Assembly (NCBI RefSeq): GCF_014204935.1
Contig: NZ_JACHMJ010000001.1
Span: forward strand, 1,364,001 to 1,428,000
From: Conyzicola lurida
Lineage (GTDB): Bacteria > Actinomycetota > Actinomycetes > Actinomycetales > Microbacteriaceae
Length of the DNA stretch: 64,000 nt
Reading direction: 5' to 3'
Notes under the pieces: model-generated
Seen by the model: only the letters and a program-made list of their open reading frames with translations
The model's database searches: none
Told to the model about the DNA's origin: nothing
Shown here: positions 41,999 to 47,489 of the stretch, piece by piece
Layout: every line of letters begins with the position of its first letter
Numbering within the stretch: the stretch's first letter is position 1
Translations under genes and position numbers: made by a program

Positions 41999-42098
41999 CC
42001 GTTCGCTTTCGGATCCGGTGGAGTGTGGACTCCCGAGAATACCTAACAGAAACTGCGAACCGGCTTCGTGCGTCGGTGGCACCTGTCAGGCTGTAGCG

Positions 42099-44201
42099 GT
42101 GACTGACACCCGAGAATCCGCCCTTGCCGTCCTCCGCACCCTCGTCGGTCGCGAGGACGCCGACTTCCACGAGGGCCAGTTCGAGGCGATCTCGGCCCTC
42201 GTCGACGACCGTCGCCGCGCCCTCGTGGTGCAGCGCACCGGATGGGGCAAGTCGGCGGTCTACTTCGTCGCGACCCTGTTGCTGCGGCAGCGCGGCGCCG
42301 GTCCGACCATCCTCGTTTCGCCTCTGCTCGCCCTGATGCGCGACCAGGTGGCGGCCGCCGCCCGCGCCGGCGTGCGCGCCGTGTCGATCAACTCGTCGAA
42401 CGCGCACGAGTGGGCCGAGGTGCAGCAGAAACTGCGCGACGACGAGGTCGACGTGCTGCTCGTCTCGCCCGAGCGGCTGAACAACCCCGGCTTCCGCGAC
42501 GAGCAGTTGCCCGCCCTCGTCGCGCGGGCCGGCCTGCTCGTGGTCGACGAGGCGCACTGCATCTCCGACTGGGGCCACGACTTCCGTCCCGACTACCGCC
42601 GGCTGCGCGACCTCATCGCCGAGCTGCCCGACGGCATCCCGGTGCTCGCCACCACCGCGACCGCCAACAGCCGCGTGGTCGCCGACGTCGCCGAGCAGCT
42701 GGCCGGGCATACCACCGACGTCCTCACCATCCGCGGCCCGCTCGCCCGCGCCTCGCTGCGCCTCGGCGTGCTGCGGCTGCCGAACGCGCAGGCGCGACTG
42801 GCCTGGCTGCTCAGCCACCTCTCCGAGCTGCCGGGCAGCGGCATCATCTACGCCCTCACCGTCTCCGCCGCCGAGGACACCGCGCGCCTGCTGCGCGAAG
42901 CCGGGCACGAAGTGCACGCCTACACCGGCCGCACCGACACGGTCGAACGCGAGCAGCTCGAGGGACGGCTCAAGGCCAACGACCTGAAGGCCCTCGTCGC
43001 CACGAGCGCGCTCGGCATGGGGTTCGACAAGCCCGACCTCGGTTTTGTCCTCCACCTCGGAGCGCCCTCGTCCCCCGTCGCCTACTACCAGCAGGTCGGC
43101 CGCGCCGGACGTGCCACCGACAATGCCGACGTGCTGCTGCTGCCTGGCAGCGAGGATGCCGCGATCTGGAACTACTTCGCCACGGCGTCGATGCCCAACC
43201 AGGCGAAGGCCCTCGCGGTGATCGCCGAGCTCGGCCCCGACCCGCTCTCCACCCCAGCGCTCGAGGCGCGGGTCGACCTCCGCCGCACACCGCTCGAGCT
43301 GCTGCTCAAGGTGCTCGACGTCGACGGTGCCGTGCGCAAGGTGCAGGGCGGCTGGATCGCGACCGGCGAACCGTGGGTCTACGACGCCGAGCGCTACGGG
43401 CGCATCGCCGCCGCGCGCGAGAACGAGCAGCAGTCGATGCTCGACTACGAGGTCCTGCCGGGCGACGAAACCGGATGCCGCATGGAGTTCCTGCAGCGCG
43501 CCCTCGACGACGACACCGCCGTGCCCTGCGGCCGCTGCGACAACTGCGCCGGCGCCTGGTACCCCACCGGCATCGAGACGGATGCCGCGGCCGCCGCCGC
43601 GCAGTCGCTCGAGCGCGTCGGAGTGGCCGTCGAACCGCGCGCCCAGTGGCCCAACGGCATGGCGAACCTCGGCGTGCCGGTCAAGGGCAATATCGCCGTC
43701 GGCGACCGCAACGAACCGGGCCGCGCCCTCGCCCGTCTCACCGACCTCGGCTGGGGCGGCACGCTGCGCGATGCCTTCGCGCCCGGCGCCGTCGACGCGC
43801 CCGCCTCCCCCGCGATGATCGCCGCGTGTGTCCGGGTCCTCGCCGACTGGGGCTGGGCCGATCGCCCCGTCGCCGTCGCGAGTGTGCCGTCGAAGCGGCA
43901 TCCACTGCTCGTCGAATCGATCGCCCGAGGACTCAGCACCGCCGGCCGGCTGACCTATCTCGGCGAACTCTCCACGCACGGCGGAGGCCCGAGCGGCGAG
44001 GCAGGCGGCAACAGCGCCTACCGGCTCGCGAGCGTCTGGGAGAAATTCGGCACCGAGTCGCTCGACGTGCCGCAGGGCCAGCCCGTGCTGCTGGTCGACG
44101 ACCTCGTCGACAGCCGTTGGACGATCACTGTCGCGGGCCGCGCGCTGCGGCAGGCCGGCGCCTCCGCCGTGCTGCCGTTCGTGCTCGCGCTGCGCGGGTA
44201 G
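42099..44201 (+). CDS. RecQ-family DNA helicase fused to a phosphoribosyltransferase-like domain
   Basis: A 700-residue protein. The first about 490 residues are a RecQ-like 3'-5' DNA helicase: Walker A QRTGWGKS (Lys51), DEAH in VVDEAHCISDWGHDF, SAT replaced by TTATANS, RecA2 motifs ALGMGFDKPDL and QQVGRAGRA, and a RecQ zinc region with CRMEF and CGRCDNC. There is no HRDC domain. The C-terminal about 200 residues end in a PRPP-binding-like loop VLLVDDLVDSRWT of type I phosphoribosyltransferases. The architecture occurs in other actinobacteria. The GTG start is chosen because upstream residues are not conserved. Confidence 0.93.
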   Translation: MTDTRESALAVLRTLVGREDADFHEGQFEAISALVDDRRRALVVQRTGWGKSAVYFVATLLLRQRGAGPTILVSPLLALMRDQVAAAARAGVRAVSINSSNAHEWAEVQQKLRDDEVDVLLVSPERLNNPGFRDEQLPALVARAGLLVVDEAHCISDWGHDFRPDYRRLRDLIAELPDGIPVLATTATANSRVVADVAEQLAGHTTDVLTIRGPLARASLRLGVLRLPNAQARLAWLLSHLSELPGSGIIYALTVSAAEDTARLLREAGHEVHAYTGRTDTVEREQLEGRLKANDLKALVATSALGMGFDKPDLGFVLHLGAPSSPVAYYQQVGRAGRATDNADVLLLPGSEDAAIWNYFATASMPNQAKALAVIAELGPDPLSTPALEARVDLRRTPLELLLKVLDVDGAVRKVQGGWIATGEPWVYDAERYGRIAAARENEQQSMLDYEVLPGDETGCRMEFLQRALDDDTAVPCGRCDNCAGAWYPTGIETDAAAAAAQSLERVGVAVEPRAQWPNGMANLGVPVKGNIAVGDRNEPGRALARLTDLGWGGTLRDAFAPGAVDAPASPAMIAACVRVLADWGWADRPVAVASVPSKRHPLLVESIARGLSTAGRLTYLGELSTHGGGPSGEAGGNSAYRLASVWEKFGTESLDVPQGQPVLLVDDLVDSRWTITVAGRALRQAGASAVLPFVLALRG

Positions 44202-44226
44202 CGGGCGCTGCACGGCGGGGCGCGCG

Positions 44227-44260
44227 CTTCAGCCCCGCTTCAGTTGCCGTGAACCACAAT
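44227..44260 (+). promoter_or_regulatory. Response-regulator box promoter upstream of the OmpR-type gene
   Basis: CTTCAG (44227-44232), 5 bases, CTTCAG (44238-44243), 11 bases, then the -10-like CACAAT (44255-44260) and ATG 6 bases later. There is no recognisable -35. The same geometry precedes the PepSY gene (46278-46311). Inferred to be autoregulation by the encoded response regulator. Confidence 0.7.
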
Positions 44261-44266
44261 GGGGAC

Positions 44267-44944
44267 ATGCGCGTACTGGTAGTCGAAGACGAAACCCGCC
44301 TCGCCGAGGGACTGCGCCGCGGGTTCGAGGCCGAGGGGTTCGCCGTCGACGTGGCTGCGAACGGCACCGACGGGCTCTGGTACGCCCGCGAGAACGAGTA
44401 CTCCGTGATCGTGCTCGACATCATGCTGCCCGGCATCAGCGGCTACCGCATCTGCGAGACGCTCCGCGCCGAGCGCAACTGGACGCCGATCCTGATGCTG
44501 ACCGCCAAGGACGGCGAGTGGGACCAGGTCGAGGCGCTCGACACTGGTGCCGACGACTACCTGACCAAACCCTTCTCGTACGCGGTGCTGCTCGCCCGGG
44601 TGCGCGCGCTGCTGCGGCGGCGCTCGTCCGACCGGCCGAGCGTTCTCGAGGCCGGCGACGTGCGGCTCGACCCCGCGTCGAAGAGCGTCTGGCGCGGCGA
44701 CGAGCCGATCGACCTCACCGCCCGCGAGTTCTCGGTGCTCGAATACCTGATGCGCCGCAAGGGCGAGGTGGTGTCGAAGCGCGAAGTGCTCGACAACGTC
44801 TGGGACTCCGACTTCGAGGGCGATCCCAACATCGTCGAGGTGTACGTGCGCCACCTGCGCAACAAAGTCGACCGCCCGTTCGACCGCGACGCGATCGAGA
44901 CGCTGCGGGGTTCCGGCTACCGGTTGGCGAGCAACGGTGGCTGA
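44267..44944 (+). CDS. OmpR/PhoB-family response regulator
   Basis: A 225-residue DNA-binding response regulator. The receiver domain (1-120) has the acidic pair ED (7-8), phospho-acceptor Asp51 in VLDIMLPG, Thr in LTAKDG and Lys in TKPFS. The C-terminal winged helix (about 128-222) ends in the typical NIVEVYVRHLRNKV and GSGYRL. Its stop overlaps the histidine kinase gene by 8 bp. CTTCAG direct repeats in its own promoter and before the PepSY gene are the likely binding sites. Confidence 0.95.
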   Translation: MRVLVVEDETRLAEGLRRGFEAEGFAVDVAANGTDGLWYARENEYSVIVLDIMLPGISGYRICETLRAERNWTPILMLTAKDGEWDQVEALDTGADDYLTKPFSYAVLLARVRALLRRRSSDRPSVLEAGDVRLDPASKSVWRGDEPIDLTAREFSVLEYLMRRKGEVVSKREVLDNVWDSDFEGDPNIVEVYVRHLRNKVDRPFDRDAIETLRGSGYRLASNGG

Positions 44945-46247
44945 GCGGCGGCGCAGCATCTCGCTCCGGGTGCGGATCACCCTCGTCGCGACGGCGGTGG
45001 TGGCTGCCGCGCTCGTCGTGGGGGCCGTGCTGTTCGCCTCGGTGCTGCGGATCTCCCTGCTCGACGGCGCCACCGCCTCCGCCGAGACCTACGCGTCGTC
45101 GCTCGCCGCCGCGCTCGACAGCGGAGCCGCGCTCGACGGAGACGTCGACGACCGCTTCTTCCAGGTGCAGAACGACGACGGCCAGGTCACCGCCGCGAGC
45201 GAGGACGCCGAACGGCTCGGCGCGATCGCCGAGGACGACTACGACCGCAACAACACCGTGACGGTCGAGGGCGACGCGTACCTGCTCGTCGGCGAAGACT
45301 ACGACGACGGCGTCGTGGTGGTCGGGCAGAACGTCGACGACGTGACGGAGACCCTCGGCACGGTGACCACCCTGCTGGTCGCGGCCGTGCCGGTCGTGGC
45401 TCTGCTCGTCGCGCTCACGACCTGGATCGTCGTCGGCCGCGCCCTGCGCCCGGTCGAGCGTATGCGCCGGGAGGTCGACGACGTGTCGGCGAGCCGGCTC
45501 GACAGGAGGCTCGCCGAGCCCGGCAGCGCCGACGAGATCGGCCGCCTCGCCGTCACCCTGAACAGCATGCTCGACCGGCTCGACGAGTCGCAGTCCGCCC
45601 AGAAGCGGTTCATCTCGGACGCCTCGCACGAGCTGCGGTCGCCCCTCGCGTCGCTGCGGCAGTTCGCCGAGGTCGCACAGGCGCACCCCGACCGGGTGAC
45701 GGCGGGCGAGCTGTCCGACGCGATCCTCGACGAGGGCGCCCGGCTGGAGCGTCTCGTCGACGGGATGCTGACGCTCGCGCGCTCCGACGAGCACGGGCTC
45801 GTCGTGGTGCCGCGCGCCGTCGACCTCGACGACCTCGTGCTCGCCGAGGCGAAGCGGCTGCGCGCGTCGACGACCCTGACCGTCGACGCCTCGGGGGTCG
45901 GCCCTGCTCGGATCTCCGGCGACGCCCCGCTGCTCGCGGGGCTGGTGCGCAACCTGGTCGACAACGCCGCCCGCCACGCGCATACGACCGTCGGGATCTC
46001 GCTGACCGAGACCGCCGACGGCATCGTGCTCACGGTGGACGACGACGGCGACGGCATTCCGGCCGACCAGCGCGAGCGCGTGTTCGACCGCTTCGTGCGC
46101 CTCGACGACGCCCGTGGACGGGAGAGCGGCGGCAGCGGGCTCGGGCTCTCGATCGTCCGGGAGATCGCCGTCGCCCACGGCGGACGCGTCGCTGCATCGC
46201 AGAGTCCGCTGGGCGGCGCCCGCGTCGAAGTGCGTATCCCCGTCTAG
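44937..46247 (+). CDS. Sensor histidine kinase
   Basis: A 436-residue kinase: transmembrane helices at about 13-35 and 143-165 enclosing an extracellular sensor (about 36-142) that is strikingly acidic (EDDYDRNN, GEDYDDG), HAMP domain (about 166-218), dimerisation/phosphoacceptor domain with His231 in ISDASHELRSPL, and an ATPase domain with N-box NLVDNAARHA, G1 DDDGDGI and G2 GSGLGLSIV. The acidic sensor could bind divalent cations or cationic peptides, a guess from charge only. GTG start, 8-bp overlap with the response regulator gene. Confidence 0.94.
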   Translation: MAERRRSISLRVRITLVATAVVAAALVVGAVLFASVLRISLLDGATASAETYASSLAAALDSGAALDGDVDDRFFQVQNDDGQVTAASEDAERLGAIAEDDYDRNNTVTVEGDAYLLVGEDYDDGVVVVGQNVDDVTETLGTVTTLLVAAVPVVALLVALTTWIVVGRALRPVERMRREVDDVSASRLDRRLAEPGSADEIGRLAVTLNSMLDRLDESQSAQKRFISDASHELRSPLASLRQFAEVAQAHPDRVTAGELSDAILDEGARLERLVDGMLTLARSDEHGLVVVPRAVDLDDLVLAEAKRLRASTTLTVDASGVGPARISGDAPLLAGLVRNLVDNAARHAHTTVGISLTETADGIVLTVDDDGDGIPADQRERVFDRFVRLDDARGRESGGSGLGLSIVREIAVAHGGRVAASQSPLGGARVEVRIPV

Positions 46248-46267
46248 AACCGGCTAGCTGAAAACCC

Positions 46268-46311
46268 CTTCAGCCGGCTTCAGGTTCGCTTCAGTGCCCC
46301 TCGCGCACACT
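46268..46311 (+). promoter_or_regulatory. Response-regulator box promoter upstream of the PepSY gene
   Basis: Three CTTCAG boxes at 46268-46273, 46278-46283 and 46289-46294 (steps of 10 and 11 bp), then 11 bases and CACACT (46306-46311). The last two boxes and the -10 reproduce exactly the spacing of 44238-44260. AAGGAG at 46342-46347 serves the following GTG. Confidence 0.72.
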
Positions 46312-46353
46312 GATTCCAGGTCCGAACGGGCCGAGAGAATCAAGGAGAACACC

Positions 46354-46971
46354 GTGAACAAGAAGACCATCTGGATCGTCGCAGGCGCAGCAGCCGTTCT
46401 CGTCATCGGAGGTGCCGGCGTCGCCGTCGCGGCCACCGATCCCTTCGACCAGGACAACGACCGCCTCACCGGATCCGCGCTCACCAGCGCCACCGAGGCA
46501 GCCCTCGCCGAGGTTGGAGAAGGAACCGTGTCGGAGGCCGAGCGCTCCGACGACCTCGACCACGCGTACACGGTCGAGGTGCGCCTCGACAACGGCGACG
46601 ACGTGGACGTCGAGCTCGACGAGGACTTCGACGTCGTGCGGGTCGACGGCGTGGTGCCGGGTACCTCGACCGGCTCCGGCTCGAGCGAGTCGAACACCGC
46701 CGCCCCGAGCGACGGCGCGACGAACGACGCGACGAACGGCGTGACGAACGGCGCGGTCGACGACAACGCCCCGATCAGCGACGCCGACCGTGCGAGCGCC
46801 GAGCAGGCCGCGCTGGCCGAGATCGGCTCGGGCACCGTGACCGACCTCGACCGTAGCGACGATGCCGACCACGCCTGGGAGGTCGAGATCACGAACGCCG
46901 ACGGCACCGACGTCGACGTCGAGCTCGACGCCGACTTCACCGTCGTGCGCGTCGACGACGACCAGCGCTAG
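46354..46971 (+). CDS. Secreted or anchored protein with two PepSY-like repeats
   Basis: A 205-residue exported protein: basic N-terminus MNKK, hydrophobic segment (about 6-27, uncleaved anchor or signal peptide), then two copies of an acidic PepSY-like module (46-98 and 148-201; LAEVGEGTVSEAERSDD against LAEIGSGTVTDLDRSDD) separated by a Ser/Thr/Asn-rich linker with ATNDATNGVTNGA. GTG start with AAGGAG. It follows the two-component genes and its promoter carries the same CTTCAG boxes, so it is probably their regulon member. PepSY domains often inhibit proteases or act as sensors. Confidence 0.88.
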   Translation: MNKKTIWIVAGAAAVLVIGGAGVAVAATDPFDQDNDRLTGSALTSATEAALAEVGEGTVSEAERSDDLDHAYTVEVRLDNGDDVDVELDEDFDVVRVDGVVPGTSTGSGSSESNTAAPSDGATNDATNGVTNGAVDDNAPISDADRASAEQAALAEIGSGTVTDLDRSDDADHAWEVEITNADGTDVDVELDADFTVVRVDDDQR

Positions 46972-46993
46972 GCACCGCGGGGGTAACAGGGCG

Positions 46994-46999
46994 TAGGGT
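46994..46999 (+). promoter_or_regulatory. Near-leaderless -10 box of the glutathione peroxidase gene
   Basis: TAGGGT, 7 bases, then ATG at 47007; no ribosome binding site. Confidence 0.5.
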
Positions 47000-47006
47000 C
47001 AGAAGC

Positions 47007-47489
47007 ATGACGATCGCGGACATCCCCCTCACCACCATCCGAGGCGAGCAGACCAGCCTCGCGGATTTCGACGACAAGGTCATCCTCGTCGTCAACGTCG
47101 CCTCCCGCTGCGGCCTCGCGCCGCAGTACGAGAAGCTCGAGGCGTTGCAGAAGACCTACGGAGAACGCGGCTTCACCGTGCTCGGATTCCCGAGCAACCA
47201 GTTCCTGCAGGAACTCGGCACCGAAGAGAAGATCGCGGAGTACTGTTCGGCGACCTGGGGCGTGACCTTCCCGATGTTCGAGAAGATCCGTGTCAACGGC
47301 AAGCAGCAGCACCCGCTCTACGCGGAGCTGACCAAGACGCCCGACTCCGAGGGCAAGGCGGGCAAGGTGAGCTGGAACTTCGAGAAGTTCCTGATCACCC
47401 CCGCCGGCAGCATCCACCGGTTCCGCCCGCGGACCGAACCGGATGCCCCCGAGATCATCTCGCTGATCGAGACCTCGCTGCCGATCTAA
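47007..47489 (+). CDS. Glutathione peroxidase-family thiol peroxidase
   Basis: A 160-residue thioredoxin-fold peroxidase with the GPx catalytic tetrad residues Cys35 (NVASRCGL), Gln65 (PSNQF), Trp123 and Asn124 (VSWNFEKF). The active site is cysteine, not selenocysteine. Actinobacterial members normally use thioredoxin or mycothiol-linked reductants rather than glutathione. Complete and cytoplasmic. The stop overlaps that of the convergent gene in CTAA (47486-47489). Confidence 0.96.
   Translation: MTIADIPLTTIRGEQTSLADFDDKVILVVNVASRCGLAPQYEKLEALQKTYGERGFTVLGFPSNQFLQELGTEEKIAEYCSATWGVTFPMFEKIRVNGKQQHPLYAELTKTPDSEGKAGKVSWNFEKFLITPAGSIHRFRPRTEPDAPEIISLIETSLPI

Follow-up and report, generated by a model that had tools for sequence, protein, structure and literature searches.

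The question raised by this locus is whether a two-component system and the PepSY gene downstream of it are controlled through one shared promoter element, and to what such a circuit would respond. The stretch analysed here (64,000 nucleotides of Conyzicola lurida, contig NZ_JACHMJ010000001.1, positions 1,364,001 to 1,428,000; hereafter the window) encodes an OmpR/PhoB-family response regulator (RR), a sensor histidine kinase and a tandem-PepSY protein, and the direct repeat CTTCAG-N5-CTTCAG stands before both the RR gene and the PepSY gene. The reading that we favour, at a probability of about 0.85, is that these genes form a three-gene module of the UipRS-UipA type, in which the phosphorylated RR would bind the repeat, substituting for a −35 element, and activate its own operon as well as PepSY; the sensing of cations and the role of the PepSY protein are parts of this reading that we infer from related systems.

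The two arrays, CTTCAG-N5-CTTCAG followed after 11 bases by CACAMT and equally spaced at both promoters, are exactly as the original prediction had described them (Table 1), including the additional CTTCAG upstream of the PepSY repeat (46268-46273), which lies at a distance of 10 bp and not 11. The exact box occurs in the window only in these two copies; when up to two mismatches were allowed, six matches were found against 2.3 expected in shuffled sequences, of which 1 in 100 reached six. A search of the whole genome (3,643,329 bases), which had been proposed along with the boxes, returned exact copies only before the RR and PepSY genes, both on the forward strand, and the reversed-pattern control gave one hit. 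The looser core TTCAG-N6-TTCAG added one further genome site, at 420839, within an open frame. A consensus scan of positions 44150-47100 found no sigma70-like −35/−10 pair; this agrees with the claim that the promoters lack a −35 box, but lends it little weight, as shuffled sequences are also expected to yield about none.

The original prediction had staked itself on the conservation of the boxes in related genomes, and there they are widely kept. The first set consisted of the best 80 of at least 548 confirmed RR relatives, picked by protein similarity with the box ignored. In the 200 bp upstream of the RR gene, the box was found with 0, 1, 2, 3 and 4 mismatches in 29, 34, 15, 1 and 1 of these loci, respectively, which places 78 of the 80 at two or fewer mismatches of 12 positions, compared with 3/80 for reversed sequences. 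Of the 80 loci, 79 have a kinase beside the RR and 71 a PepSY frame in the same orientation; a PepSY profile used in the analysis was trained iteratively on the same loci. Counted over these 71 loci, the PepSY promoters show 0, 1, 2, 3 and 5 mismatches in 41, 16, 11, 2 and 1 cases (68/71 at two or fewer; reversed control 10/71). Both promoters carry the box in 67 of the 80 loci, under 21 labels of which 19 are genus names (the "Planococcus" one looks mislabelled), including Microbacterium, Agromyces, Curtobacterium, Nocardioides, Aeromicrobium, Actinoplanes and Nesterenkonia. In wider taxonomic terms, the site is kept in Microbacteriaceae, Nocardioidaceae, Actinoplanes and others. TTCAG-N6-TTCAG was also seen before the PepSY_MTB genes of six loci from other families of the same class (L243-L248), as GTTCAG-N5-GTTCAG in five of the six and with a kinase match upstream of the PepSY_MTB gene in five of the six, so that module and site extend beyond the 80 loci.

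How closely the site follows the regulator can be seen in a second set, made up of 199 genomes of the family. With an E cut-off of 1e-80, the RR was found in 45 of these genomes (49 matches in all), and a box with two or fewer mismatches stands upstream of 36 of the 49 (27 exact; reversed control 0/49). Forty-four of the matches are at least 64% identical, and 36 of these carry the box directly upstream; the other five, treated as paralogues by their identity (55-61%), are all without it. The eight RRs of the first group that lack an upstream box were inspected individually. In three genomes (G011, G043, G115) the gene order is PepSY–RR–kinase and the box stands in front of PepSY, while in four it lies behind the kinase, before PepSY in G171, G045 and, on a weak match (E 1e-4), G087, and before a putative PepSY gene in G095; the eighth is taken up below. 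Sites are present at 43 of the 44 family loci of the RR, and where the gene order changes the box still heads the PepSY gene.

In the same genomes, the exact pattern gave 100 hits in 67 of the 199, compared with 43 for the reversed pattern (both hand counts). An inspection of the retrieved sequence stretches likewise gave 100 boxes. Twenty-seven of the hits lie before the RR, 33 before PepSY and 40 before neither; two of these 40 (L083, L107) are located at the module and possess a −10-like element, which makes 60 a slight undercount. As the 40 other hits are close to the 43 of the control, the remainder is at chance level, and the site looks dedicated to the RR/PepSY locus on counts that miss weak sites, which could still exist. 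A larger regulon was considered and rejected on these outside and control counts, together with the position of the extra core match of the own genome inside an open frame. For what had been called an autoregulated regulon, the word regulon is generous: the RR and PepSY promoters account for the excess of exact sites over the control. In one genome (G165), a third exact box with a −10-like CACAAT lies some 1.3 Mb away from the module (L094, G165:C1:1759500-1767000), before an unlinked PepSY gene that is a candidate target in trans.

The link between the site and this particular RR can be followed in the sequences of both. The two promoters of a genome covary in the base (C or G) that opens the half-site (Fisher p = 2e-7, n = 67, uncorrected for relatedness): for the first half-site, 10 loci have G at both promoters, 6 have it at a single one and 51 have it nowhere. 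Nearly all of the 12 commonest variants, which cover 69 of the 80 relatives, have NIVEVYV/I-R/G-HLR as their recognition helix, and in the paralogues the H of this helix is replaced by Y or R; D51 of the RR is kept in 80/80 relatives. As it is conserved in many genera of soil actinobacteria, the box is very probably how the RR switches on itself and PepSY, and binding of the RR to the boxes with activation of both promoters is what we infer.

The promoters with two or fewer mismatches (78 of 80 for the RR and 68 of 71 for PepSY) were aligned on the box for a closer view of their anatomy. Information is confined to the two TTCAG cores, an A at position 29 and a T at position 33 after the box start, and some adjacent bases, with flanks near zero, and the PepSY promoters also show a C-A step at 39-40. 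If position 40 is taken as the start site, the A and the T would fall at −11 and −7 and the repeat at −40 to −24. The motif [C/G/T]ANNNT follows the box at exactly 11 bp in 60 of the 78 RR promoters (12 more have it at 10 bp and 6 have none) and in 66 of the 68 PepSY promoters, compared with a background rate of 0.017 per position further upstream. Together with the conservation of the box, this supports the earlier interpretation that an OmpR-family activator replaces the −35 element. The RR start codon lies 22-24 bp past the box in 49 of the 78 relatives, that is, at the predicted start site, so that many RR mRNAs are predicted to be leaderless. A start codon at 39-41 was found in 27 of the 68 PepSY promoters, in 26 of them in the PepSY frame. 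Going by the predicted starts, the RR gene of the window is of the leaderless kind and its PepSY gene has a leader with AAGGAG.

A further element distinguishes the PepSY promoters: relative to the box start, CTGAA stands at −20 and TTCAG, of which it is the reverse complement, at −9. Each was found in 56 of the 68 PepSY promoters and both in 55, so the two come together, and CTGAA occurs at the −20 position in 0 RR promoters. The −20 element matches CTGAA at 4.4 of 5 positions on average and TTCAG at 1.9 of 5; the order in the PepSY promoter is an inverted pair, then a direct pair. An extended dyad was rejected, as no clear covariation is seen from −21/−4 outward, past the 5-bp arms. In five Curtobacterium loci (L194, L211, L212, L222, L239), the PepSY promoters are without the CTGAA element and the N-terminus of the PepSY proteins is a lipoprotein-like signal (LAGC or VSGC), not a transmembrane anchor. 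We tentatively propose, at somewhat less than an even chance, that CTGAA-N6-TTCAG-N5-TTCAG-N6-TTCAG is a four-half-site array for one OmpR-family regulator, with an upstream inverted dimer and a direct-repeat dimer at −35. Such an array would make the switch graded: the autoregulated operon, having two half-sites, would be induced first, PepSY would follow only at high levels of phosphorylated RR, and the PepSY protein would then damp the kinase. If this is true, the use of inverted and direct half-sites by an OmpR-family protein at one promoter, over several actinobacterial families, would be unusual.

Table 1. Promoter elements and genes of the module, in positions of the window.
Feature	Position	Strand	Remarks
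CTTCAG-N5-CTTCAG direct repeat, RR promoter	44227..44243	+	predicted −40 to −24; half-sites 44227-44232 and 44238-44243
−10-like CACAAT, RR promoter	44255..44260	+	11 bp past the repeat
OmpR/PhoB-family response regulator gene	44267..44944	+	Pfam Response_reg and Trans_reg_C; ATG coincides with predicted transcription start
Sensor histidine kinase gene	44937..46247	+	HAMP, HisKA, HATPase_c; acidic PAS-like sensor domain
Extra upstream element CTGAA-N6-TTCAG, inverted half-sites, PepSY promoter	46258..46273	+	CTGAA 46258-46262; TTCAG 46269-46273
CTTCAG-N5-CTTCAG direct repeat, PepSY promoter	46278..46294	+	half-sites 46278-46283 and 46289-46294
−10-like CACACT, PepSY promoter	46306..46311	+	11 bases past the repeat; predicted transcription start 46318, 36-nt leader
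Shine-Dalgarno-like AAGGAG before PepSY start codon	46342..46347	+	read from sequence
Tandem-PepSY protein gene, UipA homologue	46354..46971	+	GTG start assumed

The RR protein matches the Pfam receiver domain at 99.6 bits and Trans_reg_C at 90.4 bits, both above the cut-offs, and its gene is overlapped by 8 bp by that of the kinase. The kinase sensor is acidic, as had been claimed, with 25 acidic and 4 basic residues in 102, and its net charge among 80 aligned kinases (79 loci plus the window) has a median of −21 and a range of −6 to −42. The predicted fold of the sensor is PAS-like and matches the WalK–YycH model 9a5d best (E 6e-9); it is not specific to any signal. The product of 46354-46971 is named PepSY_MTB by NCBIfam (NF051432, two matched stretches) and, going by its hydrophobic N-terminal segment, is membrane-anchored or exported. 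The AlphaFold2 model has two PepSY units, each with a helix and four strands and mostly at a pLDDT (predicted local distance difference test) above 90, and the N-terminal segment and the linker at low confidence, which bears out the description of a duplicated PepSY protein.

A profile of 36 PepSY proteins, that of the window included, matched UipA (PDB 7ath) at E 3e-24, Rv0603 (2kgy) at 3e-14, a PepSY/M4 propeptide chain (9vy3) at 8e-10 and the haem-binding 3fpv at 0.002. Foldseek with the window PepSY model also returned UipA 7ath as the top hit (E 8e-6), with low TM-scores (0.33/0.48) that may be expected of two units on a flexible linker. On these comparisons the PepSY protein is a homologue of UipA, and the window carries a homologous UipRS-UipA module in another member of the family. 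The UipRS-UipA system of Microbacterium, represented by PDB 7ath and 7atk and reportedly described by Gallois et al. in ISME J in 2022, likewise has an RR and a kinase upstream of a homologous tandem-PepSY protein, and two Microbacterium loci (L177, L226) combine a UipA-matching PepSY protein with the same boxes as the window; in the first of these, from M. maritypicum, the match to UipA is close (E 3e-94) and the boxes have 1 and 0 mismatches. The UipRS-UipA-like identity of the module, the CTGAA pair and the leaderless RR spacing are additions to the original prediction. Rv0603 of M. tuberculosis (PDB 2kgy, 2lra) and the PepSY_MTB family NF051432 share the PepSY homology, although Rv0603 was matched to one PepSY stretch only.

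Binding of uranyl and iron marks the UipRS-UipA module, and for the window protein, which is acidic in composition, it is putative. According to a 2022 review, the C-terminal part of UipA binds uranyl tightly, and UipA was the most induced protein after uranium exposure (PMC8963506). By analogy, the acidic kinase and the PepSY protein probably handle metal cations. Uranium is unlikely to be the natural signal; our guess is an abundant polyvalent cation such as iron.

Upstream of the module, a RecQ-like helicase frame (window 42018-44201), with a weak phosphoribosyltransferase-like match at its C-terminus (E 8e-4, below cut-off), stops 65 bp short of the RR start codon, leaving a gap into which the whole predicted RR promoter fits. 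Downstream, a glutathione-peroxidase gene (window 47007-47489) follows PepSY at a distance of 35 bp in the same orientation, and the two may be transcribed together here. Neither neighbour was found at any of the 80 relatives' loci (tblastn E 1e-15).

In the favoured mechanism, the phosphorylated RR would bind the two TTCAG half-sites head-to-tail, 11 bp apart and at about −40 to −24, and would contact RNA polymerase where a −35 element would lie, activating an otherwise weak CANNNT promoter. The first promoter would drive the RR-kinase operon, giving positive autoregulation with a leaderless RR mRNA, and the second would drive PepSY, where the extra pair of inverted half-sites would make induction stronger or more cooperative. 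The acidic kinase would sense a metal cation (iron-like or uranyl), and the PepSY protein would bind that cation and/or tune the kinase as feedback.

Such an arrangement has parallels among known regulators. Direct repeats with a period of about 11 bp are the usual geometry of OmpR-family sites, and PmrA/BasR, an OmpR-family RR with a different half-site, acts as an activator in place of the −35 element from a direct repeat with a 5-bp gap. The NCBIfam PmrA model scores the window RR at 180.9 bits, below its cut-off of 330, and the heavy-metal RR model TIGR01387 (CzcR/SilR/CopR) was rejected at 245.2 bits against an NCBIfam cut-off of 279.2. A literature search for the MprA box returned no paper. 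CutRS of Streptomyces was also rejected, since its site TAWATAAA (PMC12802291) was found in the 300 bp before 0/80 RR relatives and in neither window promoter, and the conserved positions are the TTCAG repeats.

By analogy, the nearest tested parallel is CiaR, from the CiaRH system of streptococci, and the RR may act in a CiaR-like mode. The two systems share a hexamer-N5-hexamer direct repeat, a −10 element ten or eleven bp downstream, a C before the start site and a comparable recognition helix (VVEVYVSKVRKKL in CiaR, IVEVYVRHLRNKV here). According to the CiaR study, CiaR needs TTTAAG-N5-TTTAAG, the −10 was searched 10 bp downstream and a C is preferred before the start (PMC3091779). The window has CTTCAG-N5-CTTCAG instead, similar in geometry alone, and the systems further differ in phylum and in extent, with a 15-promoter regulon including small RNAs described for S. 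pneumoniae in contrast to the local two-promoter circuit here.

Several observations weigh against the favoured reading. The 80 loci share ancestry and are not independent. One of them, from Streptomyces (L218), has an RR without the box (4 mismatches), its PepSY promoter keeping the TTCAG cores; the RR promoter of L203 has 3 mismatches, and the PepSY genes of L172, L216 and L241 are without a good box (5, 3 and 3 mismatches). The eighth family locus mentioned above (G064) has RR and kinase and no box. The window PepSY sequence alone matches 7ath only at E 0.024, and metal sensing is borrowed from UipA. Finally, conservation cannot separate activation from repression, since a regulator bound at −40 to −24 might block transcription instead.

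The alternatives, whose likelihoods are not mutually exclusive, touch different parts of this reading. The PepSY protein could be purely an output, a metal-binding buffer at the cell surface that leaves the kinase unaffected; the promoter part of the favoured reading could hold in that case too, and we judge this alternative quite possible, if a little short of an even bet. The tight uranyl binding and strong uranium induction of UipA speak for it, as does the 2022 review in reporting no role shown for UipRS (PMC8963506). In Vibrio cholerae, however, DbfQ, a small PepSY protein encoded beside DbfRS, is reported to bind the DbfS sensor domain and shift the kinase to phosphatase activity, the dbfQRS promoter rises about 40-fold without DbfQ, and PepSY-kinase neighbourhoods occur more than 60-fold over chance (PMC12714742). 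DbfQRS, like the BqsS neighbourhood of Pseudomonas, combines a PepSY protein with an RR-kinase pair and shows signs of positive autoregulation, but dbfQ lies upstream and is predicted to be co-transcribed, whereas the PepSY gene of the present module is usually served by a promoter of its own, with a distinct array of sites. A DbfQ-like feedback on the kinase is, by this analogy, plausible, at about even odds.

An unlikely alternative is that the RR binds the repeats but represses both promoters at rest, until phosphorylation or a signal relieves them. The repeat overlaps the predicted promoter core, where sites of other RRs can repress, and a CutR site 17 bp upstream of a start is reported to do so (PMC12802291). 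A −10 of the non-consensus form CANNNT, preceded by the repeat where a −35 element would be expected, nevertheless suggests an activator-dependent promoter, and the spacing matches that described for CiaR-activated promoters (PMC3091779); activation is preferred on architecture alone. Slightly less likely still is that TTCAG is recognised, and the locus co-controlled, by some regulator other than the adjacent RR. At three loci (L058, L059, L060, in G097, G159 and G095), pairs of CTTCAG-N5-CTTCAG on opposite strands lie close together beside a different RR gene (36-41% identity); the half-site may be shared with a second, distant system. The upstream element of the PepSY promoter is, in addition, an inverted repeat. 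Against a different regulator stand the presence of sites at nearly all family loci of the RR and their absence before all five closest paralogues, as well as the usual OmpR-family geometry, exemplified by CiaR. Chance, or likeness inherited through closely related loci or a duplication of the two regions, can be set aside as very improbable and already contradicted by sequence comparison, because despite the common ancestry of the 80 nearest relatives the half-sites are nearly invariant and the flanks carry almost no information, the neighbour genes of the window were not found at any of their loci, and the box stays before PepSY when gene order changes.

In searches of the open literature, none of the papers listed dealt with a TTCAG site for a system of this type; the primary UipA paper may say more. 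For the UipRS–UipA module, the analysis provides a candidate operator, predicted transcription starts and a proposed circuit of two promoters, and a promoter reporter is now usable to find the real signal of the family. The site also points to partner PepSY genes across actinobacteria, one unlinked case included.
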